Shown in pieces: positions 42,500-54,881 of a stretch of DNA of 64,000 nucleotides. How positions within the stretch are numbered: position 1 is the stretch's first letter; every line of letters begins with the position of its first letter. The DNA comes from Thermoplasmata archaeon (GTDB lineage Archaea > Thermoplasmatota > Thermoplasmata > Thermoplasmatales > Thermoplasmataceae), in the NCBI GenBank assembly GCA_021846395.1, contig JAJZXB010000004.1:62001-126000 (forward strand). The letters run 5' to 3'. The translations under genes and the position numbers were made by a program. A model generated the notes under the pieces. It worked only from the letters and a program-made list of their open reading frames with translations. It did not search any database and was not told the DNA's origin.

Positions 42500-44533
42500 T
42501 TACGGTGGAATATTCAATCTTGTTATGTATCCAGAGGAATAATAAAAGCACTCAGAATAATTTGTTTTATTCCCTCCTTTAAGATTAGATGGTTTTATCC
42601 CAATATCTGTAAAAATATTTACTGGATCCTTTTGCCTGAATATGAAAAAATGCATCGAATTTTTTAAAATTGACCTTGAAAACTCATTAAAATAGAAATC
42701 ATCTATATTCTGTGTTATGTTTATCAAAGATGTACTGTAATGCCTTGAATTTCGTATAACCATGTCCAACATTTCAGCTATTTCAGGATTTTTCAATAAT
42801 GTATGTACTTCATCTATGATAATAATTTTTTTATTGTTATCTACTGTTATAATATTATAAATTGTTGACAGAATAAAGCCAAAATTTGTAATGATAAATT
42901 TTTCCTTTGAAAAATCATATTTAAAGGTAATTTTATCGGATAATTTAACCGGATTCTTAAAATGTGTTCTTATATAATATTCAAGTGATTGGTAATGGAT
43001 ACTGTTTTTATATATTTTTAATAATTCATTCAAAATATATTTTATGTTTTTATTAACTTTTGAAATATCTTCTATATTTTTTAAAATTTCCATTTCCGAT
43101 GTATCTTTCAATATGCTTTTTATAGCGTTTCCCAGTATATTTTTCTGCGAGTTCCCATCAATATTTATGTCAATGTAGTCCCCTTTAGAATAGTCAACAA
43201 TTGTACCTGTAGAATATTCATTTAACGGGTCTATTATAAAAATGGATTCCATATCATACTGTTTTATCAGTTTTTTTGAAAAATAGGTCTTTCCAGACCC
43301 TGTTTCTCCAGTAATAATAACGTTATATGATTCTTTTTTAAATTGATTGAAATAAAATGCTTTCCTATTTATTATTTCAAATCCAGTATAATTTTTATAA
43401 TCCTGAGGATATTCAGTAAATGAAAAGGGCATTATTGTGGATATTTCCTTTGAACCTATTATGTATTTTATTCCATTTTTATTCAGTTTCAGCATTTCAT
43501 TTGATTCCCTGTTGTAATATTTATAGGTTTTAAAGTTCATGCCGATTGATTTAAATAAGCTCGAAACTTCATTGAAATTAAACTTCAAATCAACTGGATG
43601 CTTTGCCTTTATAATTATTCTTAAATACATATTGAAGACGTTTTCATTTTTCATAATATTCCTTATGCTCTCTATCTGGCTGTCAAGATTTTTATTTTTT
43701 GTATTTTTATTCCTTTTTTCTGATAATCTTTCAGCTAGCATTCTTTTTAATTTGGTATCATAATGATTATTTTTCTTAATTTCCATATTTATCATTACTG
43801 GAAAATTTAAACTTTCTATCAGTAAATTGTATAAAAAATCCTGGTCATAATTTGCATCTTCTAAATCCATAAATGAAATATAATCGTCATGCAACTTTGC
43901 ATAGGAATTGTATTTTTTATCAAAATTCATTACAATTAATTCCTTTATTGTTGAAATATCATCAATTTCAACACAATTACTAAAATAATTTTTCAATATT
44001 GCCGAACTTTTTGATACCTTTTCTTTATCGCCATGAAGAATGAAATAGGGTTCATAATATATTTTTGAGGTCCCCTTATGATCATTATTGCTCATTTTTT
44101 CTTTCGTTATTGTATTGAGGTCACATTCAATTAAATCGATAAAATTGTTTAATAAATCAATATAATTCTTTTTTTCCACGTTTAGGTAAACATTTATGGT
44201 ATTAACTTTATAAATCTTGAAATATGTTTTGTTATAATAACAAAAATCATTGACCTTTTCAATATTTACGGCCTTACTTTTATCATTGAAACTGATTTTT
44301 CTTAAAAATTCATTTATGTTTGACGGGTCAAATTTTATAAATTTATTGAACATCATGTATGCTGTTAAAAATATTATTGCAATTACTAAATTGATGTTAA
44401 AAAGTATTGAAAAAATGGATATGCCAATAATAATTATGATAAATTTATCAATTGGAATCCCATAAATATAAGATTTGTATTTCAAAACATTAACAGGCAG
44501 TTTAATATTTGATTCCTTCTGAATCGTAAACAC
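42500..44533 (-). CDS. VirB4/HerA-type ATPase with N-terminal VirB3-like TM hairpin (CedB-like)
   Basis: 677 residues. Two TMs near the N-terminus (IDKFIIIIIGISIFSILF and NLVIAIIFLTAYMMF, about 29-64) resemble VirB3/TrbD, fused ahead of a long middle domain. Walker A is GETGSGKT (about 407-415), Walker B KIIIIDEVH (about 568), followed by NITQNIDDF, the Gln-containing motif of VirB4/HerA ATPases. The start overlaps the next upstream gene by 32 bp. It would power DNA or protein transfer or pilus assembly. The relation to crenarchaeal CedB is inferred from architecture and gene company. Confidence 0.8.
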   Translation of the reverse strand: MFTIQKESNIKLPVNVLKYKSYIYGIPIDKFIIIIIGISIFSILFNINLVIAIIFLTAYMMFNKFIKFDPSNINEFLRKISFNDKSKAVNIEKVNDFCYYNKTYFKIYKVNTINVYLNVEKKNYIDLLNNFIDLIECDLNTITKEKMSNNDHKGTSKIYYEPYFILHGDKEKVSKSSAILKNYFSNCVEIDDISTIKELIVMNFDKKYNSYAKLHDDYISFMDLEDANYDQDFLYNLLIESLNFPVMINMEIKKNNHYDTKLKRMLAERLSEKRNKNTKNKNLDSQIESIRNIMKNENVFNMYLRIIIKAKHPVDLKFNFNEVSSLFKSIGMNFKTYKYYNRESNEMLKLNKNGIKYIIGSKEISTIMPFSFTEYPQDYKNYTGFEIINRKAFYFNQFKKESYNVIITGETGSGKTYFSKKLIKQYDMESIFIIDPLNEYSTGTIVDYSKGDYIDINIDGNSQKNILGNAIKSILKDTSEMEILKNIEDISKVNKNIKYILNELLKIYKNSIHYQSLEYYIRTHFKNPVKLSDKITFKYDFSKEKFIITNFGFILSTIYNIITVDNNKKIIIIDEVHTLLKNPEIAEMLDMVIRNSRHYSTSLINITQNIDDFYFNEFSRSILKNSMHFFIFRQKDPVNIFTDIGIKPSNLKGGNKTNYSECFYYSSGYITRLNIPP

Positions 44534-45404
44534 CTCCGGATAGATTTTGGTCTATAGAAACGCCAGAATTTAATAAGCTGCCCATATCAAAATTGCCCAA
44601 TATAGCAGAATCAAATGACATGCCAAAAAATGGAAACATTGTGCCGGCTCTGAATAATTGGAACATTTCCGTTACAAAATATAGTGGCACAATAGCAGAC
44701 GCGTATATTATTCCCATTTCAAGAAAAAAATCGTTTGAAAATATGGTTAATGTATATAGCATCATTATTGTAAAAAACTGGAAAAATGCTACCTCAAAAA
44801 ACATCCGTATAAATTTAAAAACATACTTCTCGGAATCTGGGAATATCAGAAAAATGGATATTAATGGCAAAACAAGAATAAAAAAGATAATGATTGCCTG
44901 CCTGATAATCAATATTCCAAACAAAATTGATATGGCAAAGAACATTGACCCAGAGAAAAATAATGACAAAAATTTGCCTTTCACATCCAGATTGTTGTAT
45001 ATTAAACCATACCAGTTATGGTTCATCGAATAAATATAGTTATAAAAAACATATGATGTTTTTAAAAAAATATATGAAATGTCATGTGCATTCCAGAAAA
45101 TAATAAAGGCTGCCATGAATTTAATTATTGTTTTTGAAAATTTATATGGCATTTCAAATGAATTTTTATAAAGAATATATATTGCCGACACTGGCATCAA
45201 TATCATAAATATATTTATATAAACATTGTTATTTAAATTATAATAAAATAATAAAAAACTCTTTGAAGGCGTTATGAACTGTTTATATGCATATTGCGGA
45301 TTCAACCCGTATTTCACTGTAATATCCCACATTACTGTTATCGAATATTGTATTGTGCTTAATATGTAATACAACAGTTCACCAAATATTGAGAGAACAT
45401 TCAT
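44502..45404 (-). CDS. VirB6/TrbL/CedA-like polytopic membrane protein
   Basis: 300 residues with six or seven TMs and an extended N-terminal periplasmic stretch. The central pair SMFFAISILFGILIIRQAIII and FFILVLPLISIFLIF, followed by FIRMFFEVAFFQFFTIMM, is the layout of VirB6 and CedA inner-membrane channel subunits. The C-terminal 50 residues are Gly/Ser-rich and soluble. The start overlaps the pilin-like gene stop by 4 bp, so the genes are coupled. Confidence 0.6.
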   Translation of the reverse strand: MNVLSIFGELLYYILSTIQYSITVMWDITVKYGLNPQYAYKQFITPSKSFLLFYYNLNNNVYINIFMILMPVSAIYILYKNSFEMPYKFSKTIIKFMAAFIIFWNAHDISYIFLKTSYVFYNYIYSMNHNWYGLIYNNLDVKGKFLSLFFSGSMFFAISILFGILIIRQAIIIFFILVLPLISIFLIFPDSEKYVFKFIRMFFEVAFFQFFTIMMLYTLTIFSNDFFLEMGIIYASAIVPLYFVTEMFQLFRAGTMFPFFGMSFDSAILGNFDMGSLLNSGVSIDQNLSGGVYDSEGIKY

Positions 45405-45661
45405 GGTTTCCCTGTTACAATATAATTGAATAATACAAATATAGTTCCTGATATTGCCATTATGTATATTACAGTTCCAATTGATGCGTTCTTGAGCCTC
45501 TGCCTTGCCATATATTGCTTATTCTCATCTGCACTGAAAAAGTTCAAAGCTATTGGAATCCACAGTAATGTAATTAAAATAGCTGATATTGCTATAACTA
45601 TATCATCTATTCTGGATAGCATTGTTTGCAAAGCTACTACGCTAAAAATATACAGTAACAT
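45401..45661 (-). CDS. Small two-TM pilin-like protein (VirB2/CedA1-like)
   Basis: 86 residues. Two TMs (about 20-42 and 62-82) are joined by a short charged loop SADENKQYMARQRLKNA. This hairpin with basic cytoplasmic loop is the architecture of VirB2/TrbC pilins and of CedA1/TedC, which form conjugation-like pili in Crenarchaeota. No signal peptide cleavage site is obvious. An ATG at 45622 is an alternative start. Confidence 0.55.
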   Translation of the reverse strand: MLLYIFSVVALQTMLSRIDDIVIAISAILITLLWIPIALNFFSADENKQYMARQRLKNASIGTVIYIMAISGTIFVLFNYIVTGKP

Positions 45662-45715
45662 AGAAAGATAATAAAAAAATGATATATATTATTAACCTAT
45701 ATTCGGCAAAAAGCA

Positions 45716-47851
45716 TTATTTTAAAATTATAAACTTTTTCCCATCCATATCCTTCTCTATGCTAATCTCACCTGTTTTTTCCATCCTTTTGATAAATTTT
45801 CTGGCCCTTAATTTTGAAATTTTATTTTTCTTGTATAACTTTAACGCATCCTTCATATGCATGCCATAAATGTCGTTGATTAGGGAATTTACATCTTTAT
45901 TACTGTAATATAGATTGTATAAAAAAATAAACAAAACAGCAATAACTCCGGAAAAAGATACATAATATGGTAAATTTCCTACTATGATAAAATTATGGGT
46001 TACCTCCCTGTGATTATTATGGTATTTAATTTCCATTGTTATTTTATCATATCCAATGGGAAGACTTTTACCAGGACTCACGCCTGAACCAAAATATTTC
46101 CCATTCACATACCATATTATGCTTGCATTTTTTAAATTGGTCCCATTTATCAATGCAACAGGTCTGCCATTTATGATTTTGATTTTTTGTAGCACAATAT
46201 CTGTAAAATAATTTATTTTTATGGTTTTATTCAAATAGGATTCCATTCCAATTGTATTTTTTATTAAAATATTAATATTGTAAGCTCCATTTTTATTATA
46301 CGTTTCATTAAAATTTAGTGTATTTCCAGTAAGTTTCAATTCCGTAACATTTACACTGTTATTTATGAACACAGTGTATGAATTTACATTACTATTCAAA
46401 TGAATGTGAAATGATGCAACATTTTTAACAACAGATGTATTGTAAAAGATTGTTATGTTTGAAGGCACGTATACATTAGGGGTGTATAGGTTCATGACAC
46501 CAGTTGACATTACGATAAAGGTATTATTAAAATTGGACATATATCCGGTATCATTTATTCCCGTGTTATAAAATGTATTGTTATTTTTATAATAAAATTC
46601 ACCATTTTCCATAAATATGTTTCCGTGGATATTTTTAAAATTGTTCATAATTGTTCCATTAATATTTATAGAACTGTTATTATACAAAAACGATGAAATT
46701 CCATTATTTTCAAAGTATGTAATTGCATTGAAATTTTTATTTACCCTTTCATTTGTTATATTATGCAGTATTACAATATTTGAATTAATTGTATATTCAG
46801 AAATGGCGTTATTTTTAACTGTGTATATATCCAGATTATTTTGGGTTGATATCCTGAAAATTGGACCATTCAATTTAACTGTTTTACTTGAATTATCATG
46901 ACAGAAATATAAAGTTGAATTGTGATAAAAAACATAATAATTATCAAAAATAATCATTCCAGAAACAGTATGGTTGATATTGACAAAACTGCTTTTAATT
47001 GAGCCGTTATTATATATTTTTATAATAGAAACGTTATTTCCTGAAATAAAATAAAAATAACTTGAATTATTAAAATTGATCATTGATGCTTTTTTAATAT
47101 TTTTTAATGTGTTGTTGTAATATACTGATGAGGTGTGATTGTATAAATTATATTTTATTATATCATAATTCAAGGATAAATAAAAAACTGAAAATGTTTT
47201 TTTAAAATAAACGGCATTGTTATTTTTATTCAATGGCTTGTATTCTATGTTGTATTTTTCACTCTTTAGGTTCATTTTACTGCTTGATGTTCTATAAATT
47301 CCCGAATACTTTTCAGATGTGACATTGTATATTTTTTGATAGGAGTATTTTCCTCCAAAAAATATTGATAAATTTTCGTTTATATACGGATGGGATAAAT
47401 TTATTTTATATGGTATGTTTATTTCTGAATTATTTTCATTGATGTATATATATGACTGGTGACTATTCAATGACATTACTATTTTTATTGAGTAAATATA
47501 ATTCTGCCTTGCTAAAGAGAATGTGTTTTTATGTGTACTGTTTCCCTTTATTACTGTCTGGCCAATATTCTGCTTACCGTATGTAATATTCAATAATTCA
47601 TTATTCCCCTGTTTCAATATAATCGAATTTTCTGTTAAGGAACAATATTTACTTTGATTCCATGAAATATTTATATTGTATTCTGCATATTTATGATAAG
47701 GCTCATTATATTTTAAATATAAGGAAGAACCACCTGATGAAAATATTTTAGGCCCTGTGGAATCATTCAAATTCATTCTATCATTATAATGAAATGCAAC
47801 TGTGGATAAAATCATAGATAATATAATGATGGCTATTACTGTCTTTTTCAT
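45716..47851 (-). CDS. Large surface protein with cytoplasmic winged-helix-like tail
   Basis: 711 residues. Signal peptide (about 1-22), then about 600 Asn/Ser/Tyr-rich extracellular residues with many N-x-S/T sites and repeated YFYFISGNN- and VVFYHNST-like strands suggesting a beta-propeller, an Ig-like region before the TM, one TM (about 627-650) and a 60-residue inner tail containing MKDALKLYKKNKISKLRARK and EKTGEISIEKDMDGKKF, which looks like a winged helix. First gene of the four-gene secretion-like operon. It could sense partner cells or act as adhesin or regulator. Confidence 0.65.
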   Translation of the reverse strand: MKKTVIAIIILSMILSTVAFHYNDRMNLNDSTGPKIFSSGGSSLYLKYNEPYHKYAEYNINISWNQSKYCSLTENSIILKQGNNELLNITYGKQNIGQTVIKGNSTHKNTFSLARQNYIYSIKIVMSLNSHQSYIYINENNSEINIPYKINLSHPYINENLSIFFGGKYSYQKIYNVTSEKYSGIYRTSSSKMNLKSEKYNIEYKPLNKNNNAVYFKKTFSVFYLSLNYDIIKYNLYNHTSSVYYNNTLKNIKKASMINFNNSSYFYFISGNNVSIIKIYNNGSIKSSFVNINHTVSGMIIFDNYYVFYHNSTLYFCHDNSSKTVKLNGPIFRISTQNNLDIYTVKNNAISEYTINSNIVILHNITNERVNKNFNAITYFENNGISSFLYNNSSININGTIMNNFKNIHGNIFMENGEFYYKNNNTFYNTGINDTGYMSNFNNTFIVMSTGVMNLYTPNVYVPSNITIFYNTSVVKNVASFHIHLNSNVNSYTVFINNSVNVTELKLTGNTLNFNETYNKNGAYNINILIKNTIGMESYLNKTIKINYFTDIVLQKIKIINGRPVALINGTNLKNASIIWYVNGKYFGSGVSPGKSLPIGYDKITMEIKYHNNHREVTHNFIIVGNLPYYVSFSGVIAVLFIFLYNLYYSNKDVNSLINDIYGMHMKDALKLYKKNKISKLRARKFIKRMEKTGEISIEKDMDGKKFIILK

Positions 47852-53192: not shown

Positions 53193-53231
53193 GAAGAATA
53201 CAACAGGCACTGATATTTAAAATTATTGACT

Positions 53232-53400
53232 GTGAACTACCTCACGTTAAAACGATGAAGCTTCCTATATCAACCACAAAACTTGCCTTCACGTTTGGAA
53301 TACTGTTCAGGTATTCCATCATGCAGGTATAGGTTTTCATGTCCATAGGCGTATATTCCCTACGTTCCGTAGGTACCATATATTCTAATATATTTATTGA
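53232..53400 (-). ncRNA. Candidate omega RNA (guide RNA) region of tnpB
   Basis: In TnpB systems the guide RNA overlaps the 3' end of tnpB and the right end. Here a CCTACG-TTC-CGTAGG hairpin at 53359-53373 has two compensatory base-pair changes relative to the derivative copy (50532-50546), and a second hairpin marks the end. Inferred; no transcript evidence. Confidence 0.35.
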
Positions 53401-54489
53401 TGCATTTAGATCCCGATCAATAGAGATATTGCATGATCCACAGTTGAATGTTCTTTCCTTCAGAGGCATCTTCTGCCTATGGCCACATATTGAGCATACC
53501 TGTGATGTGGGTGTATATCTTGGAACAACCTTAGGAGTACGTGATTTTCTCTTTAAATCATCCATTATTCCTCCTATTGCTGATCCCCGAATCTTTCTTC
53601 CCCACAATCTCATCCACCCTTTTATGGGATCATTCTGGAATGCAATTGTCTCAAAACTATTTGTTATAATATTAACTATCTTATTTATTTCATCCTTCTT
53701 CTTCTGTGTTATATACTTATATTCTTTATTCAACTTATTCAGTGTTTTATACCAGTTCTTCCCATGCTGTTTTCTACGTGATAGTTCTTTATGAAGTTTT
53801 ATAGCCTTCCCTGTTAGTGGTATATCTTCATTAATGATTATTCCATTTGATAGTGTTAATGAACTTTTAATACCGAAATCAATACCAATTCCATTATCAG
53901 AATGTGTTATATCTTTTATTCCAGTAAATGTTGATATATGGATAAAATAATCCCCATTTCTAGATTCAAGTGTTGCATTAGCTATATCAGCATCTTTTGG
54001 TATCTGTTCAATACCGGAAACCTTTAACTTGCCTATCCTCTGGATTCTAATATATTTGCCTGAAATATTGTATGTATTTTTATATTGCTTCAAAGGTATT
54101 GAGTATATTCTCTTTTTGAAATGCAACCTTCCGATCTTATTGCCATTCTTCTTTAAATTTGAAAGACCCTTTATGCTATCCTTAGTTTTATCAATAATCT
54201 CCTGTTTCATCTGTGATGATAATAACAATATATCTCTATCCTCATAATGGTCCTTTACCTTTATCTTAACTTTATTAATCCTATAATCCTGGTTATAGAT
54301 ATCATCTTCTGATAAAATATAATTATAAAACCACTTTGCCTCAAGAAAGATACGATTAAGATTCTTTACCTTTGTTTTGCCTAGATGGGATATATCTATT
54401 TTCAGTTCATAGGATCTGCATGTCTGTGATTTCCTCCTTTCCCTTGTCTCCGATATGGTCTTTCTGATTGCATCATTCTTCTCAGACAT
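53242..54489 (-). CDS. tnpB: RNA-guided nuclease TnpB of IS200/IS605 family
   Basis: 415 residues. RuvC-like motifs: GIGIDFGIKSSLTLSNG (Asp), IAFQNDPIKGW at the second acidic position (an ND in place of ED, common in this branch) and CDRDLNASINIL (Asp). Zinc ribbon CSICG and CGSC at about residues 335-355. N-terminal HTH region with many Lys/Arg. The gene looks intact. TnpB cuts DNA under a guide RNA and favours retention of the element. Confidence 0.88.
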   Translation of the reverse strand: MSEKNDAIRKTISETRERRKSQTCRSYELKIDISHLGKTKVKNLNRIFLEAKWFYNYILSEDDIYNQDYRINKVKIKVKDHYEDRDILLLSSQMKQEIIDKTKDSIKGLSNLKKNGNKIGRLHFKKRIYSIPLKQYKNTYNISGKYIRIQRIGKLKVSGIEQIPKDADIANATLESRNGDYFIHISTFTGIKDITHSDNGIGIDFGIKSSLTLSNGIIINEDIPLTGKAIKLHKELSRRKQHGKNWYKTLNKLNKEYKYITQKKKDEINKIVNIITNSFETIAFQNDPIKGWMRLWGRKIRGSAIGGIMDDLKRKSRTPKVVPRYTPTSQVCSICGHRQKMPLKERTFNCGSCNISIDRDLNASINILEYMVPTERREYTPMDMKTYTCMMEYLNSIPNVKASFVVDIGSFIVLT

Positions 54490-54881
54490 GTTTCTATTTC
54501 TCTATATATTTATTTACAGTTTCCAATATTATTCGACTCACAGATGAATACCTATCAATAAAATGACCTGTGGGCTTTATCGGCTGTGATATCTTCATAT
54601 ATTAAAAATATGCAATTCAATAATATAAATATTTGCACTTCATCCACATTGCAAGACTCAGTGGCTTTCGTGCTTTAAATTGTTTGTAAAAACCAATTTT
54701 ATGACGGTAATTGTTTTATTTGCCTATCTTCAATTGATTCCTTTGCAATGTGCCAACCTTTATTTGCTTGTTTGAAAATGATATAATTTAACAGTGCTGG
54801 ATATTTTACATCTTTCTGACTTATTTTTATAAAAAATGTGAGGGTCAAAATAATTTTTATACTATATGCTATTACCGTATT

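Follow-up and report, generated by a model that had tools for sequence, protein, structure and literature searches.

The closest described counterparts of the locus reported here are Ced and Ted, two domesticated type IV secretion systems (T4SSs) of Thermoproteota (PMC9905601, PMC11868833), of which Ced occurs in Sulfolobales (CedA/A1/A2/B, CedD, CedE, PMC11868833) and Ted in Thermoproteales (TedA/TedB/TedC, PMC9905601). Some Ced parts have been assigned to export as well (PMC11868833). No Ced-like system was found described for Thermoplasmatota in the literature outside subscription papers and preprints, where the sole prior mention of a T4SS in Thermoplasmatales is a 2016 report of such components in Cuniculiplasma divulgatum, which also possesses a separate TraG/VirD4 ATPase (PMC5155288). 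Here we describe a gene cluster of near-certain T4SS origin in an acid-loving relative of Acidiplasma, which probably constitutes a domesticated minimal T4SS (conjugation) apparatus exchanging chromosomal DNA between cells, and which by its description can be regarded as analogous to Ced and Ted.

The cluster lies on the minus strand of the window, as we call the whole analysed stretch of 64,000 nucleotides, in a 1.66 Mb genome of 25 contigs that is 97% complete and belongs to the same genus as Acidiplasma aeolicum VT. Its four genes encode, in order of transcription, a large surface protein, a pilin, a putative polytopic channel protein and an ATPase, with sizes, order and overlaps as first described in an earlier note made from the sequence. 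The surface-protein gene starts 77 bp downstream of an EamA transporter gene, and 54 bp separate its end from the start of the pilin gene; the pilin and VirB6 genes overlap by 4 bp (ATGA) and the VirB6 and ATPase genes by 32 bp. As tight or overlapping gene spacing is repeated in nearly all relatives, these overlaps are not due to chance. An Rfam scan of the region gave no match. Elsewhere in the window, an IS605-type element spans positions 53231-54698 and carries a TnpB-like gene (53242-54489) with a Cas12f-like TNB domain; a repeat of about 250 bp at 50406-50640 matches both ends of this element, with its middle missing. As this repeat has 44 matching places in the window genome, such copies probably form a family of non-autonomous derivatives.

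The pilin gene (45401-45661, minus strand) encodes 86 residues that form two hydrophobic helices and a charged loop, with no evident signal peptide. Although the window copy matches the T4SS_pilin family PF18895 at E 1.2e-4 and 22.5 bits, below the cut-off of 26.6, the family is matched by 33 of 36 aligned relatives (best E 1.7e-8), two of which additionally match TrbC/VirB2, so that the VirB2 likeness proposed in the earlier note holds and the protein is, as far as sequence can tell, a type IV secretion pilin. The pilins of the window's family begin directly at the hydrophobic region and those of other families carry signal-peptide-like N-termini; both states have been described before, for the unprocessed CedA1, which starts at its hydrophobic region, and for TedC with its signal peptide (PMC9905601). 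The pilin profile gave only chance matches to PDB sequences. Structure prediction, which the earlier note had proposed as a check, yielded an AlphaFold model of a single continuous long helix with a pTM of 0.36, and no PDB chain was matched in a fold search with this model.

The putative VirB6/CedA-type channel protein (44502-45404, minus strand, 300 aa) has no Pfam or PDB sequence match and no significant sequence link to any VirB6. Its description as a protein with six to seven transmembrane segments fits most relatives, for which hydropathy gives 4-9 and mostly 6-7, but not the window copy, for which hydropathy gives 5 and the AlphaFold model eight long helices. This model exceeds a pLDDT of 90 over most of residues 1-245, and when it was searched with Foldseek against 350,542 PDB chains, R388 TrwI/VirB6 took ranks 1-4 at E-values of 0.29-0.59 that are not significant singly. 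The specificity of an all-VirB6 top ranking obtained with a predicted fold is nevertheless notable and in line with the proposed VirB6 similarity. In the loci of relatives, the channel gene always lies between the pilin gene and the genes for VirB3 and VirB4.

The ATPase gene (42500-44533, minus strand, 677 aa, GTG start) encodes a VirB4-type ATPase to which a VirB3-like transmembrane hairpin is fused N-terminally. Its Walker A motif GETGSGKT (residues 408-415) is located at 43289-43312 on the minus strand, and residues G409, G412, G414, K415, D435, E439, E575 and R597 are invariant in 29 aligned ATPases. Against NCBIfam, the protein matched TraC at 7.6e-20 and the CD1110 VirB4 at 6e-19, both below the full-length cut-offs; the profile of the ATPase family found VirB4 4ag5 first among PDB sequences at 1.2e-26, with HerA-type proteins following at 9e-18 and weaker. 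A search of plasmids with tblastn retrieved 1,055 records, 936 of them typed as conjugative. In our tree, the ATPase is split from four HerAs at 100/100 and placed with VirB4s against VirD4-like ATPases at a support of only 72/90. A separate HerA gene was found elsewhere in the window genome (contig C18). The open designation as a VirB4/HerA-type ATPase is thus narrowed to its VirB4 side, and the protein is, judged by its sequence, VirB4-like and not a HerA.

The two-transmembrane hairpin itself occupies approximately residues 29-65 (44338-44447, minus strand), and residues 24-73 match the VirB3 family PF05101 at an E-value of 0.27. In many relatives, the hairpin and the N-terminal domain form a separate protein of 190-280 aa, the gene of which is located between those of VirB6 and VirB4. 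Scanned alone, these split N-terminal proteins gave weak matches throughout, to PrgI in five cases and to TcpE and VirB3 in one case each, PrgI and TcpE being names of VirB3 counterparts in monoderm systems (PMC12857230). VirB3 homologues have been stated to be absent in archaea (PMC11868833), a statement that a VirB3-like hairpin in Thermoplasmatota would modify.

The surface protein gene (SURF, 45716-47851, minus strand) encodes 711 residues with a hydrophobic N-terminus, 33 N-X-S/T sequons, one C-terminal transmembrane segment and a short cytoplasmic tail. Its only sequence homologue occurs in A. aeolicum, there too directly upstream of the pilin. Large surface proteins upstream of the pilin are also present in two other families of the class, f15 and f5, where they carry one transmembrane segment and a winged-helix-like cytoplasmic tail of about 60 aa; with a profile of this tail, such proteins were found in nearly all f15 and f5 loci. 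The tail of the window protein aligns with it in register, at about 3 bits and an hhalign probability of 6%, which is not significant and was rated as resemblance only. We suggest that the surface protein may serve as an adhesin or contact sensor of the system.

The pilin-VirB6-VirB4 gene order was found in about 50 genomes, including those of Ferroplasma acidarmanus Fer1, Thermoplasma sp., A. aeolicum, Thermogymnomonas and E-plasma, and the order B2-B6-(B3)-B4 is fixed in the loci of several families. Within the window's family, 32 of 33 well-assembled genomes contain one copy of the pilin according to its profile, and one such genome is listed without it. In one congener (G001, 96% complete) the whole cluster was not found; when the syntenic empty site was searched, the flanks were unmatched too and no clean loss was visible. 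Among the other families of the class, the cluster is present in most genomes of f15, in f3 and f4, and in 4 of 8 genomes of f5; for f11 and f24, there was no pilin among the matches listed. About 18 loci of the family share a thioesterase gene upstream of the operon and a small convergent two-transmembrane gene downstream, with ribose-5-phosphate isomerase and Trm1 as further housekeeping neighbours. In most of the family, the small convergent protein (L043:3686-3946 and its equivalents) is encoded directly downstream of VirB4; Acidiplasma and Ferroplasma lack it.

Pairwise distances of pilin, VirB6 and VirB4 track those of HerA within the family (r 0.64-0.85, p <= 0.0004). Neither pilin nor VirB6 was found in 72,556 plasmids, nor was the pilin found in viral contigs, and the operon neighbours at the locus include no relaxase, integrase or mobile-element signs. 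A mobile-element reading was rejected for the window's family, because the locus is syntenic and single-copy there and was found neither on plasmids nor in viral contigs. The locus of this family is thus, as its sequence comparisons support well, vertically inherited, chromosomal and domesticated, and the idea that Thermoplasmatales carry a version of their own is supported.

The earlier note had argued from the lack of a nearby relaxase or coupling protein that the system imports DNA. The observation is correct for the neighbourhood, and a coupling-protein homologue was not found anywhere in the 97%-complete window genome either; the argument loses weight, however, since a VirD4-like ATPase is encoded by most relatives and, in family f3, directly downstream of VirB4. 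Most genomes of the window's family carry this 620-690-aa protein elsewhere, with DUF87 and TrwB_AAD_bind domains above cut-off. The window's genus, Ferroplasma and genus g19 lack it, but it is present in the other f1 genera with adequate genomes, so that the missing coupling protein is a matter of loss or absence within one sub-lineage.

Several features of the VirD4-like proteins and related loci deserve mention. The Thermoplasmatales VirD4-like ATPases (L192:4195-6099, L193:4270-6183, L202:2637-4550) have their P-loop near the N-terminus, no transmembrane anchor, and a C-terminal IPD...VEVEVSD...SR...K pattern resembling PD-(D/E)XK nucleases; this nuclease-like domain could make the DNA substrate. 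In the f3 loci (L079, L077, L078, L046), a gene for a GINS-like protein comes after VirB2-VirB6-VirB3-VirB4-VirD4-like genes, and the array is divergent from topoisomerase VI subunit genes in a replication/repair neighbourhood, which counts in favour of the reading as a DNA-exchange apparatus. In f15, L236 and L237 hold pilin domains inside open frames of 700-1,112 aa, suggesting fusions to ectodomains or, alternatively, frame-calling artefacts in GC-rich DNA. The f5 genome G040 (1,486,778 bp), which we take to be probably that of Aciduliprofundum boonei, encodes a full VirD4 (TrwB_AAD_bind 2.5e-38) about 40 kb from its cluster. There, a tandem array (L080:9326-16427) encodes five proteins whose pilin domain is close to the C-terminus and, in four of the five, is preceded by a large ectodomain, with an Ig-domain surface protein at its head and the VirB6 and VirB4 genes after it; adhesin-tipped pili on an ICE-like element are a possible reading of this array.

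For the window's family, exchange of chromosomal DNA between cells appears the most likely function by analogy, given the vertically inherited core locus, the lack of relaxase and mobile-element signs and the parallel to Ced and Ted. Pilin subunits would assemble together with lipid into a thin pilus of the conjugation type, and the VirB6-like protein would serve as the pore through the single membrane. A hexameric VirB4-type ATPase, kept at the membrane by the VirB3-like hairpin fused to it, would drive pilin assembly, DNA passage or both, and the large surface protein would act at the cell surface on contact with another cell. As no coupling protein was found in the window's genus and the locus there contains no DNA-processing gene, the DNA would have to be passed on by other factors, such as the HerA found at a different place in the genome. 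The minimal T4SS-type apparatus recognised in the earlier note is supported in its VirB2- and VirB4-like parts and, more weakly, in its VirB3- and VirB6-like parts. Sequence and model comparisons establish the T4SS origin of pilin and ATPase, the conserved gene order and the domestication, from which we infer a pilus, a pore and DNA as cargo.

A surface pilus or protein exporter that derives from a T4SS but transfers no DNA, its VirB2 pilus serving adhesion, biofilm formation or secretion, is an unlikely but serious alternative, under which DNA transport would have been lost in Acidiplasma and Ferroplasma along with the VirD4-like ATPase. The distribution of that ATPase speaks for it, as do the adhesin-like fusions of pilin domains to large ectodomains in some relatives and the large surface protein upstream of the pilin; however, Ced too works without a known VirD4 (PMC9905601, PMC11868833), and the full ATPase and channel are retained with catalytic residues intact. 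A remnant or active integrative conjugative element (ICE) serving its own transfer instead of a host system is very improbable and already largely refuted for the window's family, where the cluster is single-copy, near-universal and syntenic, distances track the host, and the relaxase, coupling protein and integrase that accompany the T4SS of an ICE are lacking among the operon neighbours, with no VirD4 homologue in the genome. Such an element has more to recommend it in f5, where the patchy cluster, together with the full VirD4 of G040, fits the single archaeal ICE reported, in A. boonei (Guglielmini et al., PMC3158045). That the operon encodes a DNA-repair helicase of the HerA type together with unrelated small membrane proteins is hardly credible: the ATPases do match DUF87/HerA domains, yet the window protein falls outside the clade of the four HerAs in the tree, its family profile favours VirB4 among PDB sequences, the pilin matches its own family and the genome holds a separate HerA, and a HerA identity of the ATPase was rejected.

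Ced and Ted are described only in Thermoproteota, so a core-genome T4SS in Thermoplasmatota would extend host-owned conjugation to a second archaeal phylum, and the cluster would be a tangible candidate for the means by which recombination occurs in Ferroplasma, Thermoplasma and their kin. Since some lineages lack the VirD4-like ATPase and others have it, nature also provides a comparison from which the contribution of a coupling protein could be read. More tentatively, one might envisage a third, phylum-wide domesticated conjugation system, in which VirB3 is fused to or split from VirB4, some genera can do without the VirD4-like ATPase, and a receptor at the cell surface could, through its winged-helix-like cytoplasmic tail, couple cell contact to the transcription of transfer genes.

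Among the known systems, the components reported for C. divulgatum (PMC5155288), a VirB4 of arCOG04034 with membrane proteins, apparently represent the same cluster, although in that report no pilin was identified, no function assigned and no relation to Ced proposed. With the bacterial monoderm T4SSs (MPF_FATA; pCF10 with a PrgI-type VirB3, CD1110 VirB4) the locus would share the core of VirB3, VirB4 and VirB6, and VirB4 and weak PrgI profile matches were obtained, but it lacks VirB1/VirB8, a relaxase and a mobile element and adds a VirB2 pilin. The likeness to Ced, drawn from published descriptions, is that of a minimal, domesticated T4SS which has neither relaxase nor VirD4, with a short pilin that, like CedA1, has no evident signal peptide; unlike Ced, which has CedB and CedD, the cluster has one VirB4 with an N-terminal hairpin, no link to Ups or UV regulation shown, and a single operon that unites the genes for pilin, channel and ATPase. 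Ted, from another phylum and likewise compared by published description, resembles it in that a chromosomal locus holds genes for a VirB2 pilin and for VirB4-type and, here putatively, VirB6-type proteins, and the signal-peptide-like N-termini of some relatives' pilins recall TedC, whereas the window locus has no adjoining ParA or Rad50, adds a surface protein and fuses the VirB3-like hairpin to VirB4.
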